DNA from: Rosistilla carotiformis
GTDB lineage: Bacteria; Planctomycetota; Planctomycetia; Pirellulales; Pirellulaceae
Length of the DNA: 64,000 nucleotides
NCBI RefSeq assembly: GCF_007753095.1
Contig: NZ_CP036348.1
Coordinates: forward strand, 2,480,001 to 2,544,000
Direction: 5' to 3'
Shown here: positions 12,760 to 34,485 of the stretch, one piece after another
Layout of the letters: the number at the start of each line of letters is the position of its first letter
Position numbering within the stretch: position 1 is the first letter of the stretch
Made by a program: the position numbers and the translations under genes
Notes under the pieces: model-generated
What the model was told of the DNA's origin: nothing
Seen by the model: only the letters and a program-made list of their open reading frames with translations
Databases searched by the model: none

Positions 12760-12919
12760 GCAACGATCGAAATGGAATGCCCCTCCGAAAAGCTTACGAA
12801 ACGTTCGTTTTTGGGCCCTCCCATGGCTTCGCCGCGAGAGGGTGTAACCGAGCGGTAGCGAGGACGTTGCCGGTAGCTATTGCGTCGGGGGCAATGGGAT
12901 GCGAAGCGTTATTTAGCGG

Positions 12920-13875: not shown

Positions 13876-13930
13876 ACTGCCATGCTCGATGCGCGAACCG
13901 GGAAGATTTGTCTAAAAATCTTTAAAAGTC

Positions 13931-15553
13931 TCACCCATTGTCTAATATCGCCGAGGCCGCTTCGTCTTCACTCACGCGCGTTGGTGTCGCGACATGGCGG
14001 AACGAAAACTCGCGGAACAACAGGAACAGATTGATCATCGCCAAGGCGCCTCCGACAACCAAAGTCGCGGCCACGACAGCTTCATCCAATTTCTGATCGT
14101 CGAAAACGCGGAAGATCGTCCACATCCAATTGGTCGTTTCCTGAACGCCATAGAACGACGACGGCGAACCGGTCACGATCGCCATGAAGACCGACGGGAC
14201 CACGATTCCCAGCACCAACAGACTGCACATCGCGGCAAGCGCGAGCCCCATCGAATGCCCAAATCGCCGCGATAGAACCAGCATAATCAAGCGGACGGCA
14301 GACAAATACATCAGCAGGTATCCGATCATCAACAGCGCAAAGACCAGCGGTTGAATCGATCGGGCCACCAAAAGGCTGCACATTCCCAACGACAAGATCC
14401 CCGTCGCCGCCGTGGTCAACGCAAACATGTATCCGGTGCCGGGGCCGGGGATCATCCACAGCAGAAACATTCGGCCCAAGGTCGTTTCGGGCAATGTGCG
14501 AAGCACGCGGGGACTCAAATCGACCGACTCTCCCAACATCAACGTTCCCATCAACAGCCAATAGCCGCCCAACATGAGACAGCCGAACATCAGCACATCG
14601 TCGTCGTTGGACCAAAGAGCCAACGTGGCGATGCTGCCGATCCAGATCAATTGTTGCGCAAACATAATCCAACGCAGCGGCGTGGATCGGTTTTCGGTGA
14701 CCGGAGCGATCCGCGACGCCGCCGCTTTGACAAACAGCACCATGCACGAAACCGCAACCAGACCGAAGAGTGCGGTGAACAACAACGCTTCGAGATCCCA
14801 GATCAATTCCTGAGAATAGACAGCGCTTAACACGAAGATCGCCGTAAAGATCTCGGCAAGAAAGATCGTCGCCAACAGCATCAGCAGCGTCAACATCTGG
14901 GTCGCTCGGGTTTCCGCGACCGTCGACAACAGCAGTCCCCAGGTCGTCAATAAGACCGAAACTGTGAAGACGACCACAATCGTTGTCGCGATCATCGGCA
15001 GGTCGACACCTCGCAACAGGTAACAGAAGGCGAAGCAGGGGACCAGCACCGCAAAATAGACAAGCATTTGCAGCAGTGCACTTCCCAGCTTCCCGGTCAC
15101 GATCCGCAGCGCCGAGAGCTTTGTGATCGCCAGCATCTCAAACGTTCCCTCATCCAGTTCGGCCGCCAAGGAACGGTGAGCAGCTAAAGGGACCATCGCC
15201 AGCATCGGAATCGCTAACAGGAAATAGTAGCCGGTCATCATGTAGACACCCGACGGCACGTAATAGATATCCGGGGCGAGCGTGACGACCCCCACGGTCA
15301 TCCAAAACAGCGAGGCAATCAGCAGCAAGAAAAACGTTCCGCTGAACTGACGACTCTTCAGCGACTGCCGCGCTTCTTTGATCAAGATCGGATTCAGCCA
15401 CCGGGCCGCGCGATCGCTCCAACGATCGATCGTACCCCAAAATCCGGTGCGATCGACGTCGCAGACGTAGCGATGGTAAGCGTCGTCGGATTCGACCGGT
15501 TCGGTCGTTGGAAGGTCCTCAGCGACCAGTTCCGCGGTGATTGGTTCGTTCAT
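13931..15553 (-). CDS. ABC-2 type transporter permease
   Basis: A 540-residue integral membrane protein with about 12 hydrophobic spans. The region around residues 75-140 (LNPILIKEARQSLKSRQFSG, then PLAAHRSLAAELDEGTFEMLAITKLS) matches ABC-2 permeases, where the elbow-helix segment before the second span is diagnostic. The chosen ATG overlaps the stop of the ATP-binding subunit gene (ATGA); the frame extends 30 residues further upstream, but that part lies inside the neighbour. It pairs with the ATPase encoded directly upstream. The exported substrate is unknown. Confidence 0.88.
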   Translation of the reverse strand: MNEPITAELVAEDLPTTEPVESDDAYHRYVCDVDRTGFWGTIDRWSDRAARWLNPILIKEARQSLKSRQFSGTFFLLLIASLFWMTVGVVTLAPDIYYVPSGVYMMTGYYFLLAIPMLAMVPLAAHRSLAAELDEGTFEMLAITKLSALRIVTGKLGSALLQMLVYFAVLVPCFAFCYLLRGVDLPMIATTIVVVFTVSVLLTTWGLLLSTVAETRATQMLTLLMLLATIFLAEIFTAIFVLSAVYSQELIWDLEALLFTALFGLVAVSCMVLFVKAAASRIAPVTENRSTPLRWIMFAQQLIWIGSIATLALWSNDDDVLMFGCLMLGGYWLLMGTLMLGESVDLSPRVLRTLPETTLGRMFLLWMIPGPGTGYMFALTTAATGILSLGMCSLLVARSIQPLVFALLMIGYLLMYLSAVRLIMLVLSRRFGHSMGLALAAMCSLLVLGIVVPSVFMAIVTGSPSSFYGVQETTNWMWTIFRVFDDQKLDEAVVAATLVVGGALAMINLFLLFREFSFRHVATPTRVSEDEAASAILDNG

Positions 15554-16500
15554 TGCACCTGCCCCTTGGTCACTTGAAGGAACACGTCTTCCAAGGAATT
15601 GTGCTGCGGCGTGTATTCCAAAACCTCCAACCTCGCGTCGCACATCGCATGCAAAATCGCCACCTGATCCGCCTCGTCCCCCGCGATCGAAAACCGAATC
15701 GCGCCATCGACCTGGCGAACGTTGTTCGCTCGCGAATCGGACTGCAGCATCTCGAGTGCTCGGGCGTCGTCCGACGCGACGCGAACCAAAAGGTCACGCG
15801 TCGGTTGCAGCGTGCGACGAATGTCATCGACGCTTCCAGTCGCCAACAATTTGCCTCGCTCGATGATCCCGATCCGGTCGCACATCTCCGCCAGTTCGGT
15901 CAGGATATGGCTGCTGATCAGGATCGTCTTGCCATCGGCTGCCAGCGCCCGAATGATCTGACGTAATTCGATGCGGGCTCGCGGATCCAGCCCCGCCGCC
16001 GGTTCGTCCAACACCAAGACAGCCGGATCGTGGATCAAGGCGCGTCCCAGGCAAAGTCGCTGGCGCATCCCTTTGCTGAGTCCCCGCATCGGCTTGGTCG
16101 CCAGCGGACGCAGCCCCGTAAATTCCATCACCCAACGCAACCGCCGCGTACGATCGCGACCGACCAAACCATAAGAACGGGCGAAGAAGTCGAGGTATTC
16201 GATGCAGTTCGTATCGCCGTAGGTGCCAAAGCTGTCGGGCATGAATCCCAACCGACCGCGCACCCGATCGGGATCGTTCACGCTGGAAAGTCCTTCGACC
16301 AAGGCGTCGCCGGAGGTGGGCAGTTCGAGCGTCGCGAGGATTCGCATGCTGGTCGTCTTCCCGGCTCCGTTGGGGCCGATGTAGCCGAACACGCTGCCGC
16401 GGGGGACCTCAAACGAAACATGGTCGACCGCTTGCGTATCGCCAAAGCTGCGGCAGAGGTCGCGGATTTCGATCATCGGTCCGTCGTATCCGGTGGTCAT
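15550..16500 (-). CDS. ABC transporter ATP-binding protein
   Basis: A 316-residue ABC ATPase. The nucleotide-binding motifs are intact: Walker A GPNGAGKTT, signature LSKGMRQR, Walker B VLVLDEP and switch histidine in SSHIL. A C-terminal extension of about 90 residues (ending NSLEDVFLQVTKG) is typical of DrrA/CcmA-like exporter ATPases paired with ABC-2 permeases. The stop overlaps the permease start and the start overlaps the stop of the upstream gene, each by 4 bases, so the cluster is tightly translated as a unit. Confidence 0.95.
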   Translation of the reverse strand: MTTGYDGPMIEIRDLCRSFGDTQAVDHVSFEVPRGSVFGYIGPNGAGKTTSMRILATLELPTSGDALVEGLSSVNDPDRVRGRLGFMPDSFGTYGDTNCIEYLDFFARSYGLVGRDRTRRLRWVMEFTGLRPLATKPMRGLSKGMRQRLCLGRALIHDPAVLVLDEPAAGLDPRARIELRQIIRALAADGKTILISSHILTELAEMCDRIGIIERGKLLATGSVDDIRRTLQPTRDLLVRVASDDARALEMLQSDSRANNVRQVDGAIRFSIAGDEADQVAILHAMCDARLEVLEYTPQHNSLEDVFLQVTKGQVQ

Positions 16501-18719
16501 GGCAGCTCTCCCATGATCACGTGGACGCTTCCCTCGGTCCGAGCGTCGCTGACGCCCAACGCATCACTCTGCAACTGCGTCGTCGCCAAAAAATGATCGT
16601 TCGGCAGCGAACCGAGCCATTGATTTAACTGCTGTTCCAATGACGTGAGCTCCGCGTTGGTCGAATGATTGCTGTAACCATCGTTATGAAGAACGGGGAC
16701 CGGCGAATCGATCCGCAATGGGGCGACGTCGATCAACGTGTTGGGCGAGGTGCTTTGCGATCGATTCATCGTGGCCGCTTCACCCGCTGGTACGTCGCGT
16801 GCAACCCACAACTGCCCCTTCGCGTCGGCAGCGATAACGCACGCCAGCGGGTGCGCCGATTGATTGCGGACCAACAACGAATCGTCCGACCGATCGAAGC
16901 CGATTTTTGGCGGGACCGCTTGCGGTTGCAGCGTCATGTATTGCACCTGAGTCCGTGCCGGCAAAAACTGTCCCGTGTAGCGGTAGTCGGTCTCCGAAGC
17001 ATCGATCGCGCGCCGCGAGCTCTGGTTGCTGGGAGGGCGATAGCGGTTCTGAACCGCGGTGTTGCGGATCGGAAAGAGCGCCGTCTGATCCGGCAATTGA
17101 ATGCCATCGGCGCGACCAAACGAAGAAAAATAGGTCTGCCGGTTTTGCGAAACGCAATAGCCGGCATCGGTATCCTGCCAGGTCAGTTGCCGTGCGCGGA
17201 CGCGCGTCTGCCATCCGTCGGCCAGCAATGCGTAAGCGAACAATCCCAACGTCAACAACAACGCCAAGGCGGGAGCGAAAAAGAGGAGCAAGTGAAGCCG
17301 CGCGTGCCTGCGGAAAAACAGGTAGCCGACCGGCCCAATCACGATCACAAACAGGGTGTTCAGAGCGAAGAACAACTTCACCGGCGGCCCGCCCACCGCT
17401 TCGATCAACCACTTCCAATAATGATCGTCGCCGCGACGCACATCGATTCCGTTGCGCTGCGTCCAAACAAGTTGTTTCGGACCGTAGAGATCGCGAACCG
17501 TCTGCCACAACTGAAACGAACCGGGAAAGGGATAGGGATCGTCGATCGCAGTGATCGTCCCCAGCCCCATGCGCGTCGTCCTCAACATCGCGCTCAGTTC
17601 GGATGGCGATTGAATCGCCGCGGCGGGATGCTTCTCCTTCTCCATCGCTTCGAAGACCTCTTTCCGCAGCGACAGTTCCACGCCAAGCTGCTGCCATTCC
17701 CAATTCTGAGACTGTTTTGTCACTTCGCCCCAATGTTCCAACTCCAACGGGGTCGTATCGTTGGCCGCGTTCAGATCGAGCGATCGTCGGACAGCCGACG
17801 CGTCGGCGACTTTTCCCGCCGCCACCGGTTTCAATTGCACGCTACCGATGGGAAATTCAAAACCTTGGGCGTCGTAGATCCATAGATTCCCACCGGCGGC
17901 AATCCAATCGGTCAACGCCTTAAAAGGCTCCGCATGACGCGCGATCTCCTGGAGCGTCGATGCCTGGACGATGATCGCGTCCAACTGCGAATACCCCAAC
18001 CAAGATCGGTACATCGTGTGCGGATCGCTGTCGATCGCACGGAACTGAACCCAAGCCGACTGGACTCGTGTCGCAAGGTCTCGCAACTCCGTGTCGCTAA
18101 GATTTTTCTTGTCGGTCGATTCGTCGAGTGGACCATCGCCAAGCAGCGTGACCAGCGAGCGCACGTCGGGGTATCGCGCCGACGGCGCTGCTGCCATTGC
18201 TGCTTTTGCGTTTGCAACGTTGCGGGATGGATGCAGGATGCCAACCGACGTGTGCTGTTCCGCGTAACGCGTCTCCAATCTATCGATCGAAAACGTCCCT
18301 CGTCCCTTCTCGACCGGCTCCCCCGATTCGATCAACTGGACCGTCAGCTGGCTCCAAGGAACATAATAAGGAACGTAGACGACAAACCGCTCCCCCGTCG
18401 AATCCTGCGGAACGGTGCAGCGAACATGGAAATCGAAATCGAGTTGCGTGGTATCGTTGCCGCGTGGCGACAAGACGACATCAAAGGTTCGGTCGGCGGG
18501 GAACGTTGGCGTTTTTGGGAACAAACGCAAATACAGCGGTTGGTATCCGTTGGCAGCCAGCTTGGGAGTCGCAATCGTCATCCCCACGCTGCGTTGTCGC
18601 GGCAACGTCGACAGCGCGCCGATATGGACCAAACCGGCACCATCCTGGCCAAACGACGGACCGCTGCCAATGATCGCAGTCGCCCCAAGCAGCCAATAGA
18701 AACAGACGCATCGGATCAC
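16497..18719 (-). CDS. Membrane protein of the ABC exporter operon, function unknown
   Basis: A 740-residue protein starting with GTG (GTGA overlap with the preceding small gene's stop). A signal peptide at the N-terminus is followed by a large extracytoplasmic region (to about 440), two membrane spans around 445-495 (LFFALNTLFVIVIGPVGYLFF and LLLFFAPALALLLTLGLFAYAL) and a further extracytoplasmic beta-rich part. The layout resembles GldG- or DUF4350-like auxiliary proteins of ABC-2 exporters, but I see no diagnostic motif. Position and translational coupling argue that it works with the ATPase and permease. Confidence 0.8.
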   Translation of the reverse strand: MIRCVCFYWLLGATAIIGSGPSFGQDGAGLVHIGALSTLPRQRSVGMTIATPKLAANGYQPLYLRLFPKTPTFPADRTFDVVLSPRGNDTTQLDFDFHVRCTVPQDSTGERFVVYVPYYVPWSQLTVQLIESGEPVEKGRGTFSIDRLETRYAEQHTSVGILHPSRNVANAKAAMAAAPSARYPDVRSLVTLLGDGPLDESTDKKNLSDTELRDLATRVQSAWVQFRAIDSDPHTMYRSWLGYSQLDAIIVQASTLQEIARHAEPFKALTDWIAAGGNLWIYDAQGFEFPIGSVQLKPVAAGKVADASAVRRSLDLNAANDTTPLELEHWGEVTKQSQNWEWQQLGVELSLRKEVFEAMEKEKHPAAAIQSPSELSAMLRTTRMGLGTITAIDDPYPFPGSFQLWQTVRDLYGPKQLVWTQRNGIDVRRGDDHYWKWLIEAVGGPPVKLFFALNTLFVIVIGPVGYLFFRRHARLHLLLFFAPALALLLTLGLFAYALLADGWQTRVRARQLTWQDTDAGYCVSQNRQTYFSSFGRADGIQLPDQTALFPIRNTAVQNRYRPPSNQSSRRAIDASETDYRYTGQFLPARTQVQYMTLQPQAVPPKIGFDRSDDSLLVRNQSAHPLACVIAADAKGQLWVARDVPAGEAATMNRSQSTSPNTLIDVAPLRIDSPVPVLHNDGYSNHSTNAELTSLEQQLNQWLGSLPNDHFLATTQLQSDALGVSDARTEGSVHVIMGELP

Positions 18720-19036
18720 TGTGGCTCCTCCGCGGCATCGCGTTGATCAACGACCGGCGGCTGCAACCGCGAACGGGTCGGTTGCAAGATCGATCCGGTC
18801 ATCGATGCAAACAGTGACGCCAGCGCAAAGGCCAACGCGTACATCGCAAAACAACCGATCGCCGTCGCCAAGACCACCGCGACACATTGAGCCCAGAAAA
18901 CGTTTTCGAGGATCGCGGCGCGAAAGACCCACATCAGCATCGCGCACAGCGTGACCAGAAGCATTAAAAAACGCAGCGACCACTGTGGCATCGCTCGCTC
19001 GGACGATGCATGGGGTTCCGATGAGATGTTGGACAT
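18716..19036 (-). CDS. Small two-span membrane protein, first gene of the ABC exporter operon
   Basis: A 106-residue protein with two predicted spans at about 19-40 (WSLRFLMLLVTLCAMLMWVFRA) and 48-80 (ending FALASLFASM), and polar ends. No family is recognised. Its stop overlaps the GTG start of the 740-residue gene by 4 bases (GTGA), so it begins the four-gene exporter unit reading leftward. Confidence 0.7.
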   Translation of the reverse strand: MSNISSEPHASSERAMPQWSLRFLMLLVTLCAMLMWVFRAAILENVFWAQCVAVVLATAIGCFAMYALAFALASLFASMTGSILQPTRSRLQPPVVDQRDAAEEPQ

Positions 19037-19123
19037 GGCAGACGCTATCGATGCGTGGATCGATTCGAAAAGAAGCGTCTAGTGTAGCGTGTTCTGCTGA
19101 AACATGCTCGCAGGGAACCGTGA

Positions 19124-19142
19124 GGCAGACGCGTCGTCTGCC
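19124..19142. repeat. Perfect hairpin, GGCAGACG arms
   Basis: Two 8-base arms (GGCAGACG and CGTCTGCC) flank a 3-base loop. A second, looser copy of the same word (CAGACGCGGTGGTCTGCC) follows about 15 bases later. It lies about 67 bases beyond the stop of the leftward gene at 19209, between two minus-strand genes. It could be a terminator without a clear T-run or a dispersed palindromic repeat. Confidence 0.5.
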
Positions 19143-19208
19143 TTGTCCTGTCCAACCGACAGACGCGGTGGTCTGCCATTGATTTCGATCGCTCGATCGC
19201 GGCGGCGA

Positions 19209-20318
19209 CTAAACTTCGTTTGTTGCCAGAGCTTGCAAGCCGCTGATCACCTTCAACACCGTCTCTTGCGAGACGTCGCCCCACTGGGCGGCCTTGTGAC
19301 GCAGGATCGCCAGTTTGAACATCTCAAGCGCTTCGGACATGTCCGGTGGCAGTTCGGGCAGGCCGGCGAACGGCTGAGCGACGGGAGCGGCTTCGATGTC
19401 GTCCCCCTTTTCGAACTCAGCGGTCGGCAGCGGCTTGCCGCCCAGATCCTGTTCGTCCTCGTCGCCAAAGTCGGGACCTTCGGGAGCCGGTCCGGCCGAG
19501 ATATCGCCCGATTCGTCATCGAACTTTGTGTTGCTGCCACCTTGAGCGGGCAGGACGACATCTTCGTCGGGATCGGCGGTGACGATGTCTTCGGCTTGCG
19601 GGCGGTCCTGGTCGACGGCTCCCATCGATTGCCAACGCTGTTCACGCATCCCCGAGACGGACCAACCGCTTCGCATCGCCCCTTCGAGCCACATCGGAGC
19701 GTCGTCCCAATCGAGAGCCGCCAGGAAGTGGCTCCAGTACAGACCGGGATAGGTTTCGTATGACGAACCAAACGTTTCGTGAACGCGTCGCAGACGACCG
19801 ACGTGCGGGCTGGTGACGCCGCCGACGCGCTTCGCCCACGCTTCGTCGGAGTATTCCGTCGCGGGAGCATCCGATTCGATCAACGCCTCGCGCCACTCAT
19901 GGATGATCCGTCCCTTTTCCCAGTTGGTCGTGCTGATCAGGTTTTGCCAACGCCCAACAAACGGCTCGCTCGCCGAATCGAGTTCTTCGAAACTGGAGAT
20001 CGCGATGACGTCCGGTTCCCCCGCCTGATCATCCTCCGCGGCATCCGAAGCTGCCTCGGTGACATCTTCATCGCTCGCATCCGATTCGTTCATCGCGACA
20101 ACGGCAACGTTGGAATCATCATCGCCGGAGATTTCCATTTCGCTGGAGGCTGCAACATCGCTGGAGATCACGGCGTCGCTGCTGCTCGAATCGCTTGCGG
20201 TGTCGCTGGAAACCACTTCGGTCGCCGTTGCACTCATCTGATCGGTGGTACTCGCTTCGGCAGACGTATCGGTGCTGCTTGTTTCGATGTCCTGGTTGGT
20301 TGGGATCGCGTTTTCCAT
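19209..20318 (-). CDS. Acidic protein with Ser/Asp-rich N-terminus and a YhcG-N-like helical middle
   Basis: A 369-residue protein. Residues 1-110 are low-complexity, rich in Ser, Thr, Asp, Glu and Ala. The middle (about 118-230) is a helical domain: NWEKGRIIHEWREAL, RRVGGVTSPHVGRLRRVHETF and then LYWSHFLAALDWDDAPMWLE with GWSVSGMREQRW. This last part resembles the pattern of the YhcG/DUF1016 N-terminal region (LSWSH..LL..aG WSVR.L...I), although the nuclease half of YhcG is missing. The tail (about 330-365) is again helical (SEALEMFKLAILRHK). DNA binding is possible but unproven. Confidence 0.75.
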   Translation of the reverse strand: MENAIPTNQDIETSSTDTSAEASTTDQMSATATEVVSSDTASDSSSSDAVISSDVAASSEMEISGDDDSNVAVVAMNESDASDEDVTEAASDAAEDDQAGEPDVIAISSFEELDSASEPFVGRWQNLISTTNWEKGRIIHEWREALIESDAPATEYSDEAWAKRVGGVTSPHVGRLRRVHETFGSSYETYPGLYWSHFLAALDWDDAPMWLEGAMRSGWSVSGMREQRWQSMGAVDQDRPQAEDIVTADPDEDVVLPAQGGSNTKFDDESGDISAGPAPEGPDFGDEDEQDLGGKPLPTAEFEKGDDIEAAPVAQPFAGLPELPPDMSEALEMFKLAILRHKAAQWGDVSQETVLKVISGLQALATNEV

Positions 20319-22757: not shown

Positions 22758-24023
22758 ATGAAAATTTGCTTTTCTAAAACGAACCAACGCTCCGGTTTCC
22801 TGGCCGGCGGTCGACGTGTCCCTCGCTTGTTGCTGGCATCGCTGCTGTGGGTGCCATTGTGTCTGGTCGACGCAGCAGCAGATGATTGGCCCGCGTGGCG
22901 AGGGCCTCACCGCGACGGCGTTTCCCACGAATCATTGCCCGCGGAAAAGCTGGCCGCTGACGGGCTGCAAGTGCGTTGGCGCGGCGAGGTGGGGACGGGG
23001 TTTTCGACCTTTGTCGTCGCCGATGGGAACGCGCTGACAATCGGCAATTCCGAATCGGTCGACACCCTATTCTGCTTCGACGCCGAGTCGGGAAAGTTGA
23101 AGTGGCGGCATTCTTATGATGCACCGTTGGACAATCGCGATTTCGAAGGGGGCCCCACGTCGACGCCGACGGTCCACGAAGGAAGAGTCTACGTTTTGGC
23201 GCGGCAGGGAGATCTCTTCTGCTTGGACTTGGCGACCGGCAAAGTCGTCTGGCAGCAACAGATCGTCGACGCTACGAACATCCGAATCCCCGGCTGGGGG
23301 TTTGGCGGATCGCCGCAAGTGTTTGGCGATCGGTTGCTGCTGACCGTCGGCGAAGCGGGCGTTGCGGTCGACCTTGACGACGGCAAATTGGTTTGGCAAT
23401 CGGGGGACAAAGAGGCGGGATACGCGTCGCCCGTGATTTTCGACTGGCAGGGCAAGACGCAAGCGATGTTCCCTTCGGGACGCAGCTTTTCGGCCGTCGA
23501 TGTGGCGACCGGAGAAGCGATCTGGCAACAGCGGTGGCTGACCAGTTTTGGTTGCAACGCGGCCGATCCGATCGTTCACGACGGGCACGTCTTCCTTTGT
23601 TCGGGATACAACCGCGGATGTGCGCTGCTGCGATTGACCGATGACAAACCCGAGATCGTCTGGAAACACAAGCTGATGCAAAATCAGATGAATGGCTGCG
23701 TCCGGATCGGCGACGCGCTGTATGGTGTCGACGGCGATCTGGAGGCGGAACCAACGCTCAAATGCATCGACTGGGCAAGCGGCGAAGTCCATTGGGCTGA
23801 CGATTCGATTCGCCCCGGAGCGATCGCTGCGACGCGCGAGCACTTGATCGTGCTCACGACTGACGGAGAGTTGTTGATCGGCCCCGCATCGACCTCAGGT
23901 TTTGAACCGCTGACCGAAATGAAGGTGCTCGACGGCAGGTGTTGGACCGTGCCGGTGCTGGCCAATGGATTGATCTACTGTCGCACCGCCAGCGGCAGCG
24001 TCGTCTGTGTCGCTTTAAAATAG
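22758..24023 (+). CDS. Secreted PQQ-like beta-propeller protein
   Basis: A 421-residue secreted protein with a signal peptide (about residues 22-42). The mature part starts DWPAWRGPHRDGVS, a hallmark of planctomycete outer-membrane-assembly-like beta-propellers, and contains repeated blades such as LFCFDAESGKLKWRHS, LFCLDLATGKVVWQQQ and LKCIDWASGEVHWADD. The blades carry the tryptophan-docking pattern of PQQ-repeat (BamB-like) proteins but no evidence of a bound cofactor. A role as scaffold or as part of a secreted dehydrogenase is possible; no partner is adjacent. It is convergent with tsaE. Confidence 0.85.
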   Translation: MKICFSKTNQRSGFLAGGRRVPRLLLASLLWVPLCLVDAAADDWPAWRGPHRDGVSHESLPAEKLAADGLQVRWRGEVGTGFSTFVVADGNALTIGNSESVDTLFCFDAESGKLKWRHSYDAPLDNRDFEGGPTSTPTVHEGRVYVLARQGDLFCLDLATGKVVWQQQIVDATNIRIPGWGFGGSPQVFGDRLLLTVGEAGVAVDLDDGKLVWQSGDKEAGYASPVIFDWQGKTQAMFPSGRSFSAVDVATGEAIWQQRWLTSFGCNAADPIVHDGHVFLCSGYNRGCALLRLTDDKPEIVWKHKLMQNQMNGCVRIGDALYGVDGDLEAEPTLKCIDWASGEVHWADDSIRPGAIAATREHLIVLTTDGELLIGPASTSGFEPLTEMKVLDGRCWTVPVLANGLIYCRTASGSVVCVALK

Positions 24024-26362: not shown

Positions 26363-27106
26363 CTAATGAGAGTTGCCGACTTTCGAAGGCGCAGGGATTA
26401 ACGGTTCGAGCATACTTGCTGCCTCGGCGAACGTTAAAATCCGACAGTAGCGATCGCGGAGCGTTGCCAACGAAGCTTCGTGCAGTTCGGGCGTCACTGT
26501 GGCACAGCAGTCTTCGACGACGGTCACCAGGTATCCAAGATCGCAGGCGTCGCGAACGGTTGTTTCCACACATTCATTCGTGTAGACACCGACGACAAAC
26601 AGCGATTCGATCCCCATGTTTTTTAGCACATAGTGCAGGTTGGTCGACGAAAAGACGCCGCTGGCTGTCTTGTTGATCACGATCTCATCGCGAGATTCGT
26701 CGGGCCCGACGATCTCCAGGAAATCGGCTTCACGCGATCCTGGGGCCGCCAACAATCCAAGCCGCCGGTGTCCTTTGCTACGGTCGCGGCCATCGTGGGT
26801 GAGGGCTTGAATCCGCGTGTGAATGACCTCTAAACCGTGGCCGCGGAAACGATCTTGGAGACCGCGAACGTTCGGCAACACGGTCTGCTGCAGACGATCG
26901 AAGTAATATTCCTGCGCCGCCTTAGGCACTCCGCTGTTCATCGCATCTTTAAAAACGCCGTGCCCCGGAGCGGCATCGAGGTATTGCAGATCGATACACA
27001 ACAGCGCTGTCCGCCCCTCGACCAAAAACTCTCGATGGGCGGGGTTCTCGACAAAGGATTCGTGATAGACCTCTTTGAGCGGATCGACGTGTTCGTTATC
27101 GGTCAT
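26363..27106 (-). CDS. Isochorismatase-like cysteine hydrolase (amidase type)
   Basis: A 247-residue hydrolase. Triad of the family: D39 (LLCIDLQ), K146 (VINKTASG) and C179 (VGVYTNECVETT), with the usual cis-peptide region before C179. Relatives include N-carbamoylsarcosine amidase, ureidoacrylate amidohydrolase and nicotinamidase, all acting on amide or carbamoyl nitrogen. The ATG at 27106 is used (AGGA upstream); the frame extends further but overlaps the M20 gene. It ends the leftward locus, 50 bases after the M20 hydrolase, and I infer that the two remove the carbamoyl and amide groups of the proposed ureido metabolite. Confidence 0.88.
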   Translation of the reverse strand: MTDNEHVDPLKEVYHESFVENPAHREFLVEGRTALLCIDLQYLDAAPGHGVFKDAMNSGVPKAAQEYYFDRLQQTVLPNVRGLQDRFRGHGLEVIHTRIQALTHDGRDRSKGHRRLGLLAAPGSREADFLEIVGPDESRDEIVINKTASGVFSSTNLHYVLKNMGIESLFVVGVYTNECVETTVRDACDLGYLVTVVEDCCATVTPELHEASLATLRDRYCRILTFAEAASMLEPLIPAPSKVGNSH

Positions 27107-27156
27107 CGGCAACTTTTCCTGGGAGCGGTTTTTGAACGGGTTGGGAATAAGAGTTT

Positions 27157-28404
27157 TCAGTTGGTGGCGGAACTCAGCTGCACCAAGGTTTGTAACATCA
27201 AGTTTGCTCCCGCTTCGATGTCTGACCAGGCGGTCCATTCGGCAGGCGAATGACTCTGCCCGTTTTTGCTGGGCACAAAGATCATCCCGACCGGGACCAT
27301 GCTTCCCATAATCTGGGCATCGTGCGCGGCTCCGCTGGGCATCCTCAGGTGATCTAGGCCCAGTTCGCTGGCTTGGTTCATCAGAAGCTGGACGATTGCG
27401 TCATGGCAAGCGACCGGCCGCAGATAACTCTTCTGCGCAAACTCAAACATCAGATTGCGGCGGCGAGCGATTGCCGAGAGCGCTTTGCGGAAGGCGGCTC
27501 CGAGTTCCTCGAGTACCACTTCGCTGGTATCGCGTACGTCCAACGAGAATTCGACCAGACCGGGGACCGTATTGGTAGCCCCCGGCAGGATCTGCACTTT
27601 GCCGATCGTCGTGCGACTGCGTTCGCTGCCGTTCTCTTCCAAGATCCGTGGGATTTCATGTGCAAAATCGGCCAAGCCCATGAAGGCGTCGTTTCGCATC
27701 TCCATCGGTGTCGTCCCGGCATGATTCGCTTCGCCGCGCAGTGTGACCGCCCAGGTGAACAGGCCGGTGATCTCGTCGACCACTCCCACCGCCTTCTTGG
27801 TTCGATCCAAGACCGGTCCCTGTTCGATGTGCAGTTCGATATAGGCGGCGATCGATTCGGGGACCCGCGCCGCGTCCAAGGCCGCCAACGCATCGTGGCC
27901 GTGCCGCGCCAGTTCTTCGCGCAACAGCACGCCGTTCATGTCGGTCGTCGTTTCCAACGATTGAGGGTTCAGTTGGCCACAGACGGCTTGCGAACCAAAC
28001 ATCCCACCAAAACGGCCCTCTTCGTCGCTGAACGCGATCAATTCGAGCGTCCGCTCGGGTTGGAAACCGTTTTCTCGCAGCGTCCGCAGACACTCCAAAC
28101 CGACCACGACGCCAAGCGTTCCGTCCAGTGCACCGGCGCACGGCACGGTGTCGATGTGCGAACCGACCAGCACACGCGGGGCGTCACTGGTTCCGGGAAG
28201 CTCTCCCGAGATATTCATCGCTCCGTCGGTCGACGCGACCAGATCCGCTTGTTCGATCTGTTGTGTTAGCCACTGTTTGCCCTGGATATCGGCGTCGGTG
28301 AACGCCATCCGATAGATCCCGCGATCGGATTCGCGGCGGCCGATCTTGGCAAGCGTCAGGATGTCTCGTTTGATGCGTTCGAGGTCGACGCGGATTTCCA
28401 TCAT
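27157..28404 (-). CDS. M20-family N-carbamoyl-amino-acid hydrolase / allantoate amidohydrolase-like
   Basis: A 415-residue zinc amidohydrolase of the HyuC/AllC branch of peptidase family M20. Metal ligands are H83 and D85 (GSHIDTVP), D94, E128-E129 (FSDEEGRF) and H192 (HIEQGPVL, the signature of this branch). Known members release ammonia and CO2 from N-carbamoyl-L-amino acids, beta-ureidopropionate or allantoate. ATG at 28404 with AGGAA upstream; the second codon is also ATG. It lies between the asparagine-synthase-like and isochorismatase-like genes, 52 bases from the former. The neighbouring carbamoyltransferase makes an N-carbamoyl amino acid a likely substrate. Confidence 0.9.
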   Translation of the reverse strand: MMEIRVDLERIKRDILTLAKIGRRESDRGIYRMAFTDADIQGKQWLTQQIEQADLVASTDGAMNISGELPGTSDAPRVLVGSHIDTVPCAGALDGTLGVVVGLECLRTLRENGFQPERTLELIAFSDEEGRFGGMFGSQAVCGQLNPQSLETTTDMNGVLLREELARHGHDALAALDAARVPESIAAYIELHIEQGPVLDRTKKAVGVVDEITGLFTWAVTLRGEANHAGTTPMEMRNDAFMGLADFAHEIPRILEENGSERSRTTIGKVQILPGATNTVPGLVEFSLDVRDTSEVVLEELGAAFRKALSAIARRRNLMFEFAQKSYLRPVACHDAIVQLLMNQASELGLDHLRMPSGAAHDAQIMGSMVPVGMIFVPSKNGQSHSPAEWTAWSDIEAGANLMLQTLVQLSSATN

Positions 28405-28456
28405 GGTTCCTATTTGAATAACGTTGCCGGCAAATCAAGCTGCCGCACTGAATGAA

Positions 28457-30376
28457 TCAATCGACAGCGGGCAACGGCATGCCTTCGATGTATTGGCCGT
28501 GCAGGATGTGCAACTGCAACGCATGATTCATGATGATGTCGTTGCGGCGAGCGATCGTATGATCGGTCTCCTTCCACGCTTGGTCGATGAAATCACGCAA
28601 CTTTTGCGTGTCGAAGACGCCCAAGGCCGCGATCCGACTGTCCGTCAACCAATGATCGATCATGTCTTGCAGCGCGGCTCGAATCACCGGCGACGTATGG
28701 GCTGGCGGAGCCATGAAGGCGAACTTCTTTCGCTCGTACAGTTCGCGTGGCAAGACGTTGACCATCGCTTCTCGCAACACCCACTTTTCGATTCCATCGC
28801 GGATCCGCACGTCGGGCGGAATCGTGACCGCGTATTCGGCGATGTGGTGATCCAGGAACGCCGGGCGAGCTTCCATGCTGTTGGCCATGTCCATTCGGTC
28901 GCCACCCCAAGTCAAGATCTGCCCTTCGAGCATCGTCTTGCACCAGGTGTATTGCGAGACGTCCAAGCGATGCCGGCCGCGGACCTGATTCGGATCGATC
29001 GCTCCGGCGACTTCGGCCACCGGATCGTACTGCTGCATCAGATCTTGCATCGACGACGATAACAGTGGCCGCACGCGGGCCAGCGTCATCATCCAGGGTT
29101 GGATCCACGAAGGCGTGAAGCCGCACAGATCGTTCCAAGCCGTGTGTTGGAGGTCTTCTTCGGCCAGGATCGCACCGGCAAAGATCCCCGCGTCGTCCTC
29201 ACGCCCGAGCCAATCGCGTTTGAAGAATGGGTAGCCGCCAAAGAGTTCGTCGGACCCTTCGCCCGTGATCACCGCTTTGTAATTGCAAGCGCGCACGCGG
29301 CGGCTCATGTGCCACTTGGCAACCGCCAGGGTGTTGTAGAAGGTTCGTTCGGCGTGCCACGTGGCTCGTTCGAAGGCAGGACCGTAGAGTTCCTTTTCGG
29401 TCAGCAGCAGCAACTCTTGCTCCGCCCCGGTACGCTCGGCCATCAGTTTGGCGATGTTCGATTCGTCGTATTCGTCGCTGTCGAACGCGATCGTAAAAGC
29501 TTTGATCGGCGATTGTTGCAGCGTCGTCGCCAACCCGAGAATCGAACAACTGTCGATCCCGCCCGACAGATAACAACCAACCGGCACGTCGGCTTCCAAC
29601 CGCGTCGCGACCGCGTCGATCAAGCGATCTTGAACGCCTTGCACGTATTCTGCCGGATCGGCGTTTTCGACGTGCGATTCGGGGAATTCCAGGTCCCACC
29701 ACCGCTTCAGCGAGGTTTCCAAGCGACCATCGCGCTCTTGGACGATCAACATGTGCCCCGGCTGCAACGCCTGGACCCCTTCGAACGCTGTCGAGCCCGG
29801 CACCATCACCTGCATCATCTGATGGATGACCGCTTTGGGGCACATCCGCGGCTGGATGTCGGGATGTTTGAGGATCGATTTGACCTCCGATCCCCAAGCG
29901 ATTCCGTTGTCGTTGACGGAGTAGTAGAGCGGTTTGACGCCAAACCGGTCGCGGATCAGGATCAGCCGTTTTTCGCGGTGATCGTAAAGTACGACGGCGA
30001 ATTCGCCGCGCAGATGTTCGACAAAGCTGAGGCCGTATTTGCGGTACAGCGGCAGCGTGATCGCACTGTCGCTCTTGCCACTGGTCGTCAGCGTCTCACA
30101 CGCCAACTGAGTTCGCAGCGTTTTGTAGCCGTACAGTTCGCCGTTGACCGTGACCGCCAGGTCGCCATCGCGCGATTCGATCGGTTGATGGCCGTGATCC
30201 AAACCGACGATCGATAGCCGAGTGTGTCCCAGGGCGAGCCCTTGTTCCACGTACAGCCGGCTGCCGCGATCATCGGGACCGCGGTGATCCAAGACGTCGA
30301 GCATTTGGTCGAGCGCCGTTCGCAATTGACGTTCGCTGGTTCGCGATGGGTTCCAGAATCCGGTGATTCCACACAT
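28457..30376 (-). CDS. asnB: Asparagine synthase-type glutamine amidotransferase
   Basis: A 639-residue class II amidotransferase. The catalytic Cys2 is exposed after the initiator (MCGITGF), with HRGPDDRG, HTRLSI and VNGELYGY of the glutaminase domain. The synthetase domain has the PP-loop SGGIDS at 271-276, then GEGSDELFGGYPFF and EARPAFLDHHIAEYA. It would form an amide from a carboxylate with ATP and glutamine. The true substrate may be free aspartate, but enzymes of this fold also make amide osmolytes (for example the NAGGN amidotransferase), and this copy sits between a carbamoyltransferase and a carbamoyl hydrolase. Confidence 0.92.
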   Translation of the reverse strand: MCGITGFWNPSRTSERQLRTALDQMLDVLDHRGPDDRGSRLYVEQGLALGHTRLSIVGLDHGHQPIESRDGDLAVTVNGELYGYKTLRTQLACETLTTSGKSDSAITLPLYRKYGLSFVEHLRGEFAVVLYDHREKRLILIRDRFGVKPLYYSVNDNGIAWGSEVKSILKHPDIQPRMCPKAVIHQMMQVMVPGSTAFEGVQALQPGHMLIVQERDGRLETSLKRWWDLEFPESHVENADPAEYVQGVQDRLIDAVATRLEADVPVGCYLSGGIDSCSILGLATTLQQSPIKAFTIAFDSDEYDESNIAKLMAERTGAEQELLLLTEKELYGPAFERATWHAERTFYNTLAVAKWHMSRRVRACNYKAVITGEGSDELFGGYPFFKRDWLGREDDAGIFAGAILAEEDLQHTAWNDLCGFTPSWIQPWMMTLARVRPLLSSSMQDLMQQYDPVAEVAGAIDPNQVRGRHRLDVSQYTWCKTMLEGQILTWGGDRMDMANSMEARPAFLDHHIAEYAVTIPPDVRIRDGIEKWVLREAMVNVLPRELYERKKFAFMAPPAHTSPVIRAALQDMIDHWLTDSRIAALGVFDTQKLRDFIDQAWKETDHTIARRNDIIMNHALQLHILHGQYIEGMPLPAVD

Positions 30377-30461
30377 GATTGAGTTCGCTTTGTACAGTTC
30401 GTGTCGAAGTGGGTTTCAGCGGTGGCGCGACGCCGAGGGTCGCGCGCACGTTCCGGCGGTG

Positions 30462-31538
30462 CTAAAGATCGCTGATTCGATTGAGTCGCTGGAGCACCGA
30501 GACCAGCAGCGCTTGGCGGACGAAGACCGCACCGGCCGCTTGGGCGAAGTAGAGGTTGTGATCGGTGTCGTCGAGGTCTTCGGAGAGTTCATCGTTGCGG
30601 GCCAATGGATGCATCACCACCGCCTCCGGCTTCAGATCGCTGGCGAGTTCCAATTTGTAGCGGCCATCGAGGTTTCGATAGCTGTCGCCGAGGAAGGCGA
30701 TCGAATTGACATAAACGACATCCAGTTCGGTCAGAACTTTCTGCACATCGTTGGTAACTTCGATCGGAATCGGTGATTGTTCGATCGGTTCGGTCAAATC
30801 GAGCCCGACTGGATCGGCCATTTCCGAGACCAGCGTGATCTTGGAAACCGCGCCAGCGAACATCAACGACAACCGCAGGAAGCTTTTTACCGCTCGCATC
30901 GATCCGGGCGTGCCGATGATTCCCAAGTGGATCCTCCGCTCGGGAGGACAATCGGGACTGCACAGTTCCGGACGCCATTTCAGCAGCGCGTACCAATCGA
31001 TCAACGCTTGAGTCGGGTGATGCCCGCTGCCATTGCCGGCGTTGATCAACGGACGCTGCAGGTTCTTCTGGATCTCTTCGAGCGAATTGGTATCGGGATG
31101 CCGCATGATCACGATATCGCCGTAGGTGTTGAACATCTCGCCGATGTCCGCCAGCGATTCCCCCTTGGCGATTCCGGTCACTTGCCCATCGGGGACCGAC
31201 AGGACTTTGCCGTCGAGTCGCAGCAGAGCGCTTTCGAAGGAGAGTCGCGTGCGGGTGCTCGCTTCGAAAAACGCCGTGATCGCGATCTTGCCGTCCAACG
31301 GCTTTTCCATCTCGACGTTCCGCGACTCCAACAACGCCGCGAGTTGCGCGATCGCAACTACCGTGCGGCGGTCGAACTGACGGGGGTTTAAGATGGATTG
31401 TCCCGCAAGCGCTTCGAGCGCATCGCGGTCGACTTTCCCGTCGGTCCGATCCAACAGTTGTTGAGGATCAAGCAACCGCCCTTTGGAATTCCTCGCGTTG
31501 GCTTGCAACGCAAGCGATCGTTGTTGTTCTGCATTCAT
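30462..31538 (-). CDS. Aspartate-carbamoyltransferase-like enzyme with altered acceptor site
   Basis: A 358-residue carbamoyltransferase, about 45 residues longer than E. coli PyrB. Carbamoyl-phosphate residues are kept: the STRTR loop at 94-98, K125 from the neighbouring subunit loop (IAKGES), RHP at 146-148 and HPTQ at 174-177. By eye, the segment that in PyrB reads as a TRVQ-ER motif (R229 and Q231 holding aspartate) is replaced by VYVNSIAFLGD (275-285), with Ser and Ala at the two positions. The HPLPR motif is HPLAR (310-314). So carbamoyl transfer is likely, but aspartate may not be the acceptor. It starts 12 bases after the 40-residue membrane gene and 85 bases before asnB. Confidence 0.85.
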   Translation of the reverse strand: MNAEQQRSLALQANARNSKGRLLDPQQLLDRTDGKVDRDALEALAGQSILNPRQFDRRTVVAIAQLAALLESRNVEMEKPLDGKIAITAFFEASTRTRLSFESALLRLDGKVLSVPDGQVTGIAKGESLADIGEMFNTYGDIVIMRHPDTNSLEEIQKNLQRPLINAGNGSGHHPTQALIDWYALLKWRPELCSPDCPPERRIHLGIIGTPGSMRAVKSFLRLSLMFAGAVSKITLVSEMADPVGLDLTEPIEQSPIPIEVTNDVQKVLTELDVVYVNSIAFLGDSYRNLDGRYKLELASDLKPEAVVMHPLARNDELSEDLDDTDHNLYFAQAAGAVFVRQALLVSVLQRLNRISDL

Positions 31539-31550
31539 CGAATCGATGTC

Positions 31551-31673
31551 CTACCAGATGCGTTTTTTCAGTGAGTCACAAACCAGGAACACAATTAACA
31601 GCACTGCCCCAGCAGCACATAACAGCAGGCCACCGTAAACGATGACTTTTAAGAACCAGACCGAAAATATCAT
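31551..31673 (-). CDS. 40-residue membrane peptide, putative symporter accessory protein
   Basis: A very short gene found by reading the gap between the symporter and the carbamoyltransferase. The ATG overlaps the symporter stop (ATGA) and is preceded by GGAAGGGAAG. The peptide has one long hydrophobic span (about residues 6-32, with VYGGLLLCAAGAVLLIVFLV) and a basic end (SLKKRIW). Sodium:solute symporters in other bacteria are often followed by tiny coupled subunits; I infer the same role here. Translation is not proven, but coupling, ribosome site and composition all agree. Confidence 0.65.
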   Translation of the reverse strand: MIFSVWFLKVIVYGGLLLCAAGAVLLIVFLVCDSLKKRIW

Positions 31674-33157
31674 ACAATCTTCCCTTCCACCGCCGCCACC
31701 AATGGCGACTCACCCGGTGGTGCCACGGGTTGCGACAACTGGTCAAATTCGAAACGATCGGGAAGCAGCCACGTCAGCAACGCGAAAACGATTCCCGATG
31801 CCGTCGCACCAATCAATGATGCGACGAACCAGCCGATAGTAAAGTAGGCAACCAGACCGACGCTGCTCCCGACCACCATCGCCGCTCCTGCAGCCCACGG
31901 ACTAGGTCGGCGGAAATAGAGTCCGCCAACGATTGGCCAGATACAGCTGCCGACCATCGGACCGGCAAAAAAGAGGACGGTTGCTAGCGTGCCGATATTG
32001 GCCCACGCAACGGCCCAGGCGATCAGCCCCAGAATTAGAATGCTAAGCACCGACAGTCTGCGTTTGGTCGCGTCGGAGAGTGGGTTTCCGGCGGCGCGTT
32101 CGAAGATATCGTTCACCATCAGGTCGCTGGTCGCGGCCAATAGGCTGTCGATACTCGAAGCCAATGAACAGAAGACGATCACAAACACAAACAGCGCACC
32201 GCCGGTTCCCAGCAGCGTCGCCGCCACCAACGGACCGGCGATATCAGGTTGGCTGATCCCAATCCCCAGCGCCGGGGCAGCCAGTCCCAAGAAGCCCGCG
32301 ACAATCGGCACCGGCAACCACAACAGGCCGCCCAGTGCGTAAGCCTTCGGGCCAACCCCCTCACGCATCGCAAACGCTCGGCTCCACCAAACATTGCTGT
32401 GAAAGATCTCACCGAACCCGAATAACATGTTGTTGAACACGGCCATCATCGCAGCGGGAAAAAGGACCGACAACAGCATCGGCCGCTGGACTTCCAGGTT
32501 GCTATGGACATCGGCAACGTCGACGTGCAACAGCACCGCGACGGCGACGACCACAAGCCCAACCAGAATAATGAGGCTTTGAATGAAATCGGTTCCAATC
32601 ACCGCATACATCCCGCCGAAGAGCGTGTAGAGGACGCAGACCCCAAGCACCGCCGTCATGCCCACTTCGTAGGGAATGCCCGACAAAACATTCAACAGCT
32701 TACCGCCCGCCATCGCCATCGAGATCAACCACGTCATCGCATAGAACAGCGAGATGACCAGGAACGGGATCGCCCCGAGTTGTCCATAGCGACGGCGTAC
32801 AAATTCGACGGCGGTATAACCGTGAGGCATCAGTTGCCGAATCCGGCCACTCATCGGCGCAAAGGCGAACAATCCAAAACTGGCAGTCGAATAGGTCAAC
32901 GCGCCCCAGACACCCAGCTGCAGCGCGAACTGTGGTGCGAGCATCGTCGTGTTCGACGTGATCCACGTCGCCACAGCGGTCGCCGTTCCCAGGGCGAGTC
33001 CGACGTTACGGCCGGCGACGGCAAACCCGTCGTACGATTTCGCTTGTCGGCCCCACCAGACGCCTAGAGCAACCCAGACCACACCAAAGATGATCAGCAA
33101 CGCGTAGCCGGCATTGGGGCTGAGGATTGTGTTGGCAAAAATCAATCCATCGAACAT
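31670..33157 (-). CDS. Sodium:solute symporter (SSS) family transporter
   Basis: A 495-residue transporter with about 13 hydrophobic spans. The second span and following loop (NTTMLAPQFALQLGVWGALTYS) and PHGYTAVEFVRRRYG resemble the SSS family, and the second motif recalls the urea-transporting DUR3 branch; this is a weak hint to a urea- or ureido-like cargo. The ATG overlaps the end of the preceding gene by 16 bases and has AGGGAG just upstream. Its stop overlaps the 40-residue gene. Placed in the carbamoyl locus, it probably imports the compound that the enzymes make or break down. Confidence 0.9.
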   Translation of the reverse strand: MFDGLIFANTILSPNAGYALLIIFGVVWVALGVWWGRQAKSYDGFAVAGRNVGLALGTATAVATWITSNTTMLAPQFALQLGVWGALTYSTASFGLFAFAPMSGRIRQLMPHGYTAVEFVRRRYGQLGAIPFLVISLFYAMTWLISMAMAGGKLLNVLSGIPYEVGMTAVLGVCVLYTLFGGMYAVIGTDFIQSLIILVGLVVVAVAVLLHVDVADVHSNLEVQRPMLLSVLFPAAMMAVFNNMLFGFGEIFHSNVWWSRAFAMREGVGPKAYALGGLLWLPVPIVAGFLGLAAPALGIGISQPDIAGPLVAATLLGTGGALFVFVIVFCSLASSIDSLLAATSDLMVNDIFERAAGNPLSDATKRRLSVLSILILGLIAWAVAWANIGTLATVLFFAGPMVGSCIWPIVGGLYFRRPSPWAAGAAMVVGSSVGLVAYFTIGWFVASLIGATASGIVFALLTWLLPDRFEFDQLSQPVAPPGESPLVAAVEGKIV

Positions 33158-33606
33158 GCTTCACTCCCTTCGCGTCGAGGTCCCGTCTGCCTCGTCTGCC
33201 ACGTTCCGACGACGATCAATCCAATGATTACTAAGAAGACGATGAATCCACATCCCATCAACATCAACGAAAACGACAGCGACCAATGTTGAACGTGGAC
33301 CTCCGCGGGAATCGTCGACTGAGCCAAGAGGTTGCCGTCGCGATCGAAGGCGCGGACATGAAAACGGTAGTCTCCATTGGCTAGCCCGGAAACGAACGCT
33401 TCGGGGAACAAGCCCTTGTAACGGGAGACCTCCGCGTCGTCGACCACCTGGTACTCCGCCGCGTCGGCGATCTCGTTCCATCGCAGCGTCAGATATCCTT
33501 CTTGGATTTCCGTGAATTCGGTTTCCGAAAATCGCAGCGGATCTTCCGCGGCAGCAGCGAAGGAAATGTAGAAGAGAAACGCTAGGGCAACAGCAGCCAA
33601 TCGCAA
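33142..33606 (-). CDS. Fibronectin-III-like single-span membrane protein
   Basis: A 154-residue type I membrane protein. A signal peptide (AAVALAFLFYISFAAAAED) is followed by an FnIII-like beta domain at about 25-108 (LTLRWNEIADAAEYQVV, then GDYRFHVRAFDRDGNLLAQS) and one C-terminal span (about 113-140) with a basic cytoplasmic end. The initiation codon appears to be TTG at 33606, preceded by GAGGA at good spacing; no in-frame ATG precedes the signal. Its end overlaps the symporter gene by 16 bases, so the two are translated together. It is the first gene of the leftward locus, and its role (sensor or symporter chaperone) is unknown. Confidence 0.7.
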   Translation of the reverse strand: MRLAAVALAFLFYISFAAAAEDPLRFSETEFTEIQEGYLTLRWNEIADAAEYQVVDDAEVSRYKGLFPEAFVSGLANGDYRFHVRAFDRDGNLLAQSTIPAEVHVQHWSLSFSLMLMGCGFIVFLVIIGLIVVGTWQTRQTGPRREGSEACSMD

Positions 33607-33957
33607 GCAACCGTCCTCATTGTGGTGGCATTATCTAGTTCGTGCTGTAAGCACACGAATGATGAGTTCGCGGTGATCAGGCGAATGGAATGTGTCTCAT
33701 CATCGAATGAAAGCAATGCCACTACTGGCGGCGCGATCCATCGTAGCAGAAAATGCTTTGAGCTGAAAGTAATGTCCGCAGGTTAGCTCCGTTGTGTTGC
33801 GAACGGTGGCGGCAGGAGTCACAATCGTGCCTCATTGCAATTGCCGCGGCCAATTGACACCAAGCGAAGAGGGTTGTCGGAGCTGCCGACGTCGCCGGAA
33901 TACCGTATTCGAAGGGGGCGATTCCGAGGGACCGATGGCGCCCCGTGAACGATAGGA
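33607..33957. promoter_or_regulatory. Divergent control region of the carbamoyl locus and the MarR gene
   Basis: This 351-base gap carries no credible gene. It separates the leftward seven-gene locus from the rightward MarR gene, so it should hold both promoters. Besides the quasi-palindrome listed separately, an imperfect inverted repeat (CGTGCT-GTA-AGCACACG) lies at about 33651-33667, close to the leftward TTG start. I do not see sure -35/-10 boxes. Confidence 0.5.
33838..33856. promoter_or_regulatory. CAATTG quasi-palindrome, candidate MarR operator
   Basis: Two CAATTG words enclose CCGCGGC, forming a nearly symmetrical 19-base site about 100 bases before the MarR start. MarR proteins bind imperfect palindromes of this size, often in the divergent region beside their own gene. 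The assignment rests on position and symmetry only. Confidence 0.35.
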
Positions 33958-34485
33958 ATGATGACTAAGGTGCCTGAGCTTTCGAACGAAGATCAAATTG
34001 TGGCCGCGATTCGGCAGATCATCCGCGCGGTCGATCTCCACTCGCGCCAGCTTGTTAATGGGCATGGAATGACAGGCCCGCAACTGGCCGTACTTCAAGA
34101 GATCAAACGTTTGGGACCGGTGTCGCCGACGTCACTCTCGCGGGCGGTGCATTTGAGCCAAGCAACGATTACAGGAATCTTGCAACGATTGGAGCGTCGT
34201 GGCTTGATACAACGTCAACCCAGCGTTTCGGACCGGCGTTCGGTCCATGTTCAAGCGACCGACGCGGGCATTGAATTTCTGAGCGGTTCGCCGTCGCTGC
34301 TTCAAGACCGTTTTCGTGGTGCACTTTCGACGCTTGAAGATTGGGAACGGTTGCAGATCCTCTCGACACTGCAGCGCGTGGCGTCGTTGATGGATGCCGA
34401 TCAGATCGACGCCTCGCCCCACCTGACCTCGGGCGACATTCCGACCGCCCACGACGATTTGTCGGGGCCTGCGGCGAAAGCGTGA
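33958..34485 (+). CDS. MarR-family transcriptional regulator
   Basis: A 175-residue winged-helix regulator. The N-terminal helix reads IRQIIRAVDLHSRQLV, followed by GMTGPQLAVLQEI, and the recognition part is LSRAVHLSQATITGIL with the wing QPSVSDRRSVHVQAT. The DLHSRQLV helix resembles MarR proteins beside osmolyte genes (EctR-like and those of the NAGGN system) as I remember them; this is not a database result. AGGA precedes the ATG. It is divergent from the carbamoyl locus and is the best candidate for its regulator. Confidence 0.9.
   Translation: MMTKVPELSNEDQIVAAIRQIIRAVDLHSRQLVNGHGMTGPQLAVLQEIKRLGPVSPTSLSRAVHLSQATITGILQRLERRGLIQRQPSVSDRRSVHVQATDAGIEFLSGSPSLLQDRFRGALSTLEDWERLQILSTLQRVASLMDADQIDASPHLTSGDIPTAHDDLSGPAAKA

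Follow-up and report, generated by a model that had tools for sequence, protein, structure and literature searches.

We analysed a 64,000-nucleotide stretch of the Rosistilla carotiformis chromosome (G000:C1:2480001-2544000, hereafter the window) taken from a genome of 7.4 Mb, focusing on what is very probably a compatible-solute operon. An initial annotation had placed seven leftward genes and a divergent MarR-type regulatory gene in this region, and all eight were found inside 26363-34485. The leftward genes occupy positions 26363-33606, and the rightward MarR gene positions 33958-34485. From the divergent promoter onwards, the former code for a membrane-anchored protein with a predicted fibronectin type III (FnIII) domain (called fn3TM), an SSS-family sodium:solute symporter, a membrane peptide of 40 residues (called mp40), a carbamoyltransferase (CT), an AsnB-type glutamine amidotransferase, an M20-family hydrolase and an isochorismatase-family amidohydrolase (ISO). 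The leftward genes are closely packed, with overlaps of up to 82 bases or gaps of no more than 85 bases between neighbours, and the fn3TM and MarR genes are 351 bases apart.

The CT gene (30462-31538, minus strand; PF02729 and PF00185) is one of three OTCace-family genes in the genome. The initial annotation had raised the concern that CT might be the organism's only aspartate carbamoyltransferase (ATCase), which proved unfounded. CT scores below the ATCase cut-offs (169.8 versus 236.95 bits for TIGR00670 and 167.8 versus 263 for NF002032) and below that of ornithine carbamoyltransferase (OTCase; 77.9 versus 280.85), whereas another gene of the genome clears both ATCase equivalog cut-offs (317.0 versus 236.95 and 381.5 versus 263), and the third family member clears the OTCase cut-off (332.1 versus 280.85). 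Three family matches each were also found in 13 other carrier genomes, the third match of one of them (G435) being below the family cut-off. CT is an extra paralogue beside the true ATCase and OTCase. A tree was built from 43 members of the set of 85 transferases together with 20 ATCases and 5 OTC-type proteins; in it, the CT group forms one side of a single branch with a support of 100/100 and a length of 5.68, with a warning from the tool that long branches meet there.

We compared the active-site residues of the 85 transferases, using the numbering of Escherichia coli PyrB, with which CT shares the fold family and the carbamoyl-phosphate site. The carbamoyl-phosphate residues S52-T53-R54-T55-R56 (STRTR), R105 and H134 are kept in all 85 sequences and Q137 in 84, and K84 and R167 are similarly invariant. 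In ATCases, R167 binds the alpha-carboxylate, and R229 and Q231 bind the side-chain carboxylate of aspartate. The latter two residues are replaced in every CT, R229 by Ser in 84 and Ala in one, and Q231 by Ala in 84 and Thr in one, while all 19 genuine ATCases retain both (the OTC-like L118 was left out). CT also differs from PyrB by Gly in place of S80 (85/85) and Ala in place of P268 (83/85), in addition to its position in a separate clade. As CT lacks R229 and Q231, we infer that it carbamoylates an amino acid devoid of an acidic side chain.

The AsnB-type protein (28457-30376, minus strand; PF00733, 308.1 bits, plus GATase_7) is one of eight Asn_synthase-family matches in the genome. It clears the general asparagine-synthase model TIGR01536 (405.9 versus 267.1) and remains far under both the model of the N-acetylglutaminylglutamine amide (NAGGN) enzyme, TIGR03104 (282.0 versus 570.1), and the PEP-CTERM model (362.3 versus 816.9). 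Among 80 AsnB relatives, the N-terminal glutaminase Cys is present in 78 and the SGG-D ATP motif in all. The intact glutaminase site argues for an enzyme that forms an amide rather than for a cyclase. The TTIRAS stretch of E. coli AsnB has a role in aspartate binding. At this place, the window protein and four relatives read NTLAVA; the first Thr is Asn and the Ala is Val in 79 of the 80 sequences each, the last one having a gap. Lack of TTIRAS is nevertheless a weak sign, since the other paralogues of the genome are also devoid of it.

Two hydrolase genes follow. The M20 protein (27157-28404, minus strand) clears the cut-offs of TIGR01879 (353.3 versus 204 bits) and NF006771 (529.5 versus 399), and its closest solved structure is 3n5f, an N-carbamoyl-L-amino acid hydrolase. 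Ten chosen residues are identical in 50/50 relatives. They include one Asn and one Arg that we take to be carboxylate ligands, which suggests that M20 would act on the free acid once the amide has been removed. It thus resembles the family of hydantoinases/carbamoylases and allantoate amidohydrolases in its scores and retained catalytic residues, with the particularity that it is encoded here beside a synthesis and uptake module. In L052, a 965-residue open reading frame (ORF; 11077-13974) with weak similarity to M20 (25%) lies between the transferase and AsnB genes. The ISO protein (26363-27238, minus strand; PF00857, 119.5 bits, E 2.1e-34) has an Asp-Lys-Cys triad present in 48/48 relatives. 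Of the named models, those for biuret, PRK11440 and RutB-type hydrolases fit it best, with scores that are far under the cut-off in each case; in particular, the likeness to the biuret hydrolase BiuH is weak (72.5 bits versus 370). Its true start is probably Met45, at around position 27106, because most relatives are ~245-260 residues long.

The uptake components are encoded at the promoter-proximal end. The SSS symporter (31670-33157, minus strand) matches PF00474 with 69.9 bits. For fn3TM (33142-33606, minus strand), Pfam gave no match in the correct frame; hence, the assignment of an FnIII domain relies on the predicted fold. In the model (mean pLDDT 91.9), a signal-like helix is followed by a beta-sandwich and, at the C-terminus, by a helix of membrane length, and the best PDB matches, including 3pe9, are FnIII-like modules. 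The mp40 peptide (31551-31673, minus strand) had no match in family searches, and BLAST retrieved relatives in the loci of several phyla. With a crude test, a hydrophobic ORF of 39-56 codons was found between the symporter and transferase genes in at least 56 of 81 loci, and all ten mp40-like peptides inspected end with a Trp residue. Based on these sequences and their conserved position, mp40 is a real gene rather than an accident. It is possibly a small subunit of the symporter, and fn3TM is possibly another partner of it.

To determine the distribution of the locus, we used six aligned transferases as the query for a scan of species genomes. This yielded 107 relatives, the best 80 of which were examined, together with four loci from further relatives (84 loci in total). 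L025 duplicates L050 and was excluded from the residue and neighbourhood counts. In high-GC loci, the choice of ORFs may take false frames, so that counts for MarR and mp40 are lower bounds. According to their titles, the best 80 relatives belong to Planctomycetota, Verrucomicrobiota, Bacteroidota, Myxococcota and Calditrichota, with one GN15 bin. The core order fn3TM-SSS-mp40-transferase-AsnB recurs in all five named phyla. Thus, the gene order, whose conservation the initial annotation had proposed to check across marine planctomycetes, is kept well beyond them. In loci with enough room on the contig, fn3TM (72/72) and the symporter (78/78) are encoded upstream and AsnB (80/80) downstream of the transferase. 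This order is not due to chance; the counts do not represent independent events, since the loci were chosen by transferase similarity and share ancestry.

The M20-ISO pair behaves differently. Of the 45 loci whose flanks reach 6.5 kb or more in both directions, 33 have the pair within reach. Where both genes are present, they are neighbours on one strand (46/46), and depending on the locus, they either follow AsnB or form a separate or opposite unit. This variable placement suggests that synthesis and uptake form one module of the locus and recycling another.

Carriage is patchy across genomes. The locus was found in 5 of 40 genomes of near relatives (at least 78% identity) and in 2 of 392 genomes of the phylum (at least 61% identity), the genome of the window being included in both cases; the other 10 matches in the phylum are 33-37% identical. 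In the phylum of Haloferula, 3 of 240 genomes have it, including the centre genome. We also considered plasmid carriage, which was rejected as a search of the plasmid collection gave no match at E 1e-60.

The regulator provides a link to osmolyte genes. We searched 198 genomes of the class for relatives of the MarR protein (PF01047; gene at 33958-34485, plus strand) at E 1e-25 or better, and obtained 17 further matches in 16 genomes. Seven of them are encoded directly upstream of ectA and ectB (52-55% identity). In one of these loci (L166), EctA, EctB and EctD clear equivalog cut-offs and EctC a subfamily cut-off, followed by a TRAP transporter permease; in another (L147), EctA was likewise confirmed. 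Four other matches adjoin genes for sucrose-phosphate synthase/phosphatase. In L168 and L169, the phosphatase domain exceeds its cut-off, and the synthase domain falls slightly short of its own (564.0 and 563.5 versus 576). As four genomes of a single genus have a member of this MarR subfamily next to the sucrose-phosphate synthase/phosphatase gene, a MarR protein may control sucrose synthesis in planctomycetes. Judging from these relatives, the MarR protein of the window shares a trait of EctR/CosR-type regulators, having close kin beside compatible-solute genes. The top-scoring of the 17 matches (L145, G304:C10:44557-45021; 55% identity) has no recognized osmolyte gene adjacent. A PQQ_2 beta-propeller gene is found near both the window operon (22758-24023) and the sucrose-phosphate synthase locus L168 (7637-9457), which is probably a coincidence.

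Additional osmolyte genes are linked to the operon itself. In five loci (L026, L027, L032, L033 and L034), glycine-betaine synthesis genes lead directly into the operon: a glycine/sarcosine methyltransferase, a sarcosine/dimethylglycine methyltransferase and a BCCT transporter are encoded upstream of fn3TM. A MarR gene is found upstream in four of these five loci, the contig of L032 beginning near that point. In L026, no gap in the run from the first methyltransferase gene through ISO exceeds 34 bases. A model scan, which covered the L026 genes only among the betaine-gene loci, showed that the glycine/sarcosine methyltransferase clears its equivalog cut-off (489.8 versus 350), that the sarcosine/dimethylglycine methyltransferase is under its own (366.5 versus 550) and that the transporter clears the general BCCT model and not the betaine one. 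In L045, from another class, betaine-synthesis genes are divergent from the operon. The betaine-synthesis genes upstream of fn3TM on the Stieleria-type chromosome of L035 occur as closely packed pieces and are apparently remnants. As for the genome of the window, de novo betaine synthesis was rejected, as no glycine/sarcosine methyltransferase was found there over its cut-off. Two further genes (15273-19335) come after the operon of L071, from a Verrucomicrobiia bin, one for a trehalose-phosphate synthase/phosphatase (784.3 bits versus 634) and one resembling a trehalase gene. The trehalose gene is a further osmolyte neighbour.

The divergent promoter region harbours an operator-like site, CAGAAAATGCTTTGAGCTGAAAG, at 33747-33769 (plus strand), first picked out by eye from lists of palindromes. 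It is the only site of the genome with at most three mismatches to a degenerate pattern, and the control with the pattern read backwards gave none. The 23-base site recurs at 23/23 positions in L022, from the same genus, and at 19-21/23 in L026, L033, L034 and L035, where MarR is on one side of it and the first methyltransferase gene on the other. In these five loci, it exceeds the best of 40 shuffles (14-17). L050 (17 versus 15) and L145 (16 versus 14) show a slight excess, and 26 of 34 regions, including L021 and L027, do not exceed their shuffles. A core, TTTGNGCTNAAAG, has exact matches in 4 of 77 fn3TM promoter regions, with 0.06 expected from shuffles; two of them (the window and L022) served to define it, and the others are L050 and L071. 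No DNA word of at least 10 bases is common to the MarR surroundings of three of the four groups compared. We propose that 33747-33769 is a putative MarR operator.

Taken together, the residues and neighbourhoods are consistent with the following scheme. With carbamoyl phosphate as the donor, CT would carbamoylate the amino group of an amino acid whose side chain is not acidic, most likely glutamine, and AsnB would use glutamine and ATP to convert the carboxyl group to an amide. From the combination of these two enzymes, the predicted product is an N-carbamoyl amino-acid amide. Uptake or recapture of the solute would be carried out by the SSS symporter, probably together with fn3TM and mp40. 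When salt drops, ISO would take off the terminal amide and M20 the carbamoyl group, probably in that order, so that the amino acid is regained. MarR would hold the operon repressed at the divergent promoter until salt increases. This proposed chemistry fits the conserved residues. The osmolyte role is proposed because kin of the MarR protein adjoin ectoine and sucrose-phosphate synthase genes and because betaine genes are linked to the operon; the class of function put forward in the initial annotation was strengthened by these associations. We regard a ureido amide as the probable product, and its identification as carbamoyl-glutamine amide (CGA) as tentative. As an explanation of the whole locus, a carbamoyl amino-acid amide osmolyte made by CT and AsnB, most likely CGA, with uptake, recycling and MarR repression, appears moderately probable.

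Two known systems provide precedents. In the case of the NAGGN operon of Pseudomonas aeruginosa (asnO-ngg; PA3458-PA3461), the MarR protein PA3458 represses a divergent operon with an AsnB-type amidotransferase, and operon mutants grow poorly in salt (PMC8070244). The locus described here would be similar in its AsnB-type enzyme and divergent MarR gene, its N-acylating enzyme and peptidase, and the terminal amide of an uncharged osmolyte. In contrast, it has a carbamoyltransferase in place of the acetyltransferase, and additionally codes for a symporter, the FnIII protein, a small peptide, and the M20 and isochorismatase-family hydrolases. Likewise, MarR-type EctR/CosR genes flank ectoine clusters, including in Planctomycetota, and some clusters there carry an SSS transporter (PMC13342039). 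The likeness to those clusters lies in the MarR kin upstream of ectA and ectB and in the SSS component; none of the eight genes of our locus is an ectoine biosynthesis gene, its enzymes being from other families. With both precedents in mind, the operon would work like either type of locus but belongs to neither.

CGA, a compatible solute of Ectothiorhodospira, is named as an osmolyte in two papers (PMC1224877, PMC7824335), and its structure is that which CT and AsnB would yield from glutamine. The second of them, a survey of phototroph genomes in which the producing species is covered, names the compound, and genes for it were not found in the part of the text available. A literature search, with most subscription journals outside its scope and sources accessible in part, revealed no earlier description of genes for CGA or such a ureido solute.

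Several observations weigh against this interpretation. All seven ect associations belong to a single genus and all four sucrose associations to another, and six of the 17 MarR matches are beside neither ectA/ectB nor sucrose-phosphate synthase. A shared operator was sought at the ect and sucrose loci; none of their regions beats the shuffles, and the idea of sharing was rejected. The hydrolase pair is missing in 12 of the 45 loci with sufficient flanks, three of which have an M20 match alone. Chitinophaga and Sphingobacterium, which are not known to be marine, are among the carriers in the best 80 of 107 relatives. In L037, a Rhodopirellula baltica strain, AsnB is split into two frames of 571 and 108 residues (11074-12992), which may reflect either a genuine interruption of the gene or a sequencing artefact. 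Finally, the nuclear magnetic resonance (NMR) data for R. baltica DSM 10527 list sucrose, glutamate, trehalose and MGG as main solutes and, in the text available, name no ureido compound (PMC3694870); the locus is known from another strain of the species, L037. The accessible main text of the R. baltica salt microarray paper contains no match for asparagine, carbamoyl or symporter (PMC2754498).

The same NMR data, which do not name CGA, are in keeping with the same pathway and osmolyte role but a different starting amino acid, such as asparagine or some other neutral or non-protein one, whose carbamoyl amide would then be the product. The residue changes of CT leave room for this, since they argue only against an acidic side chain and name no substrate. 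We nevertheless consider this variant unlikely, as no osmolyte of the carbamoyl amino-acid amide type other than CGA appears in the available parts of the two papers cited above. A ureido compound might instead serve for nitrogen storage, signalling or defence, its link with osmolyte genes being incidental. A carbamoyl amide is indeed rich in nitrogen, the hydrolases would free ammonia, and carriage is patchy; however, the MarR kin adjoining ectoine and sucrose-phosphate synthase genes and the linkage to betaine synthesis, which occurs twice separately, make this improbable.

The presence of a symporter with two hydrolases of ureide-degrading families could also point to scavenging, in which an environmental ureide would be imported and consumed while CT and AsnB have a side role. 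Such a catabolic cluster is disfavoured, because CT and the ATP-using AsnB are found in every locus with room and the hydrolases are optional; we thus view it as highly improbable. Least credible is the idea that CT is a surplus carbamoyltransferase of pyrimidine or arginine synthesis, encoded next to an ordinary asparagine synthetase. It agrees with the score of AsnB for the general asparagine-synthase model, but the genome has other Asn_synthase-family genes, and the separate ATCase and OTCase genes, the ATCase and OTCase cut-offs and the altered active site of CT led us to reject CT as a spare PyrB or ArgF.

The proposed carbamoyl amino-acid amide operon could perhaps represent the first gene set for ureido compatible solutes, namely, a CGA pathway composed of a carbamoyltransferase and an amidotransferase, with three-part uptake, two recycling enzymes and an ectoine-type regulator, patchily distributed in at least five phyla. 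CGA is known as a compound, and a defined, conserved operon makes the question of its genes testable. If the proposal is correct, the osmolytes of marine and soda-lake bacteria would gain a nitrogen-rich member, and automatic annotations that label these genes as enzymes of the pyrimidine and asparagine pathways would be corrected.

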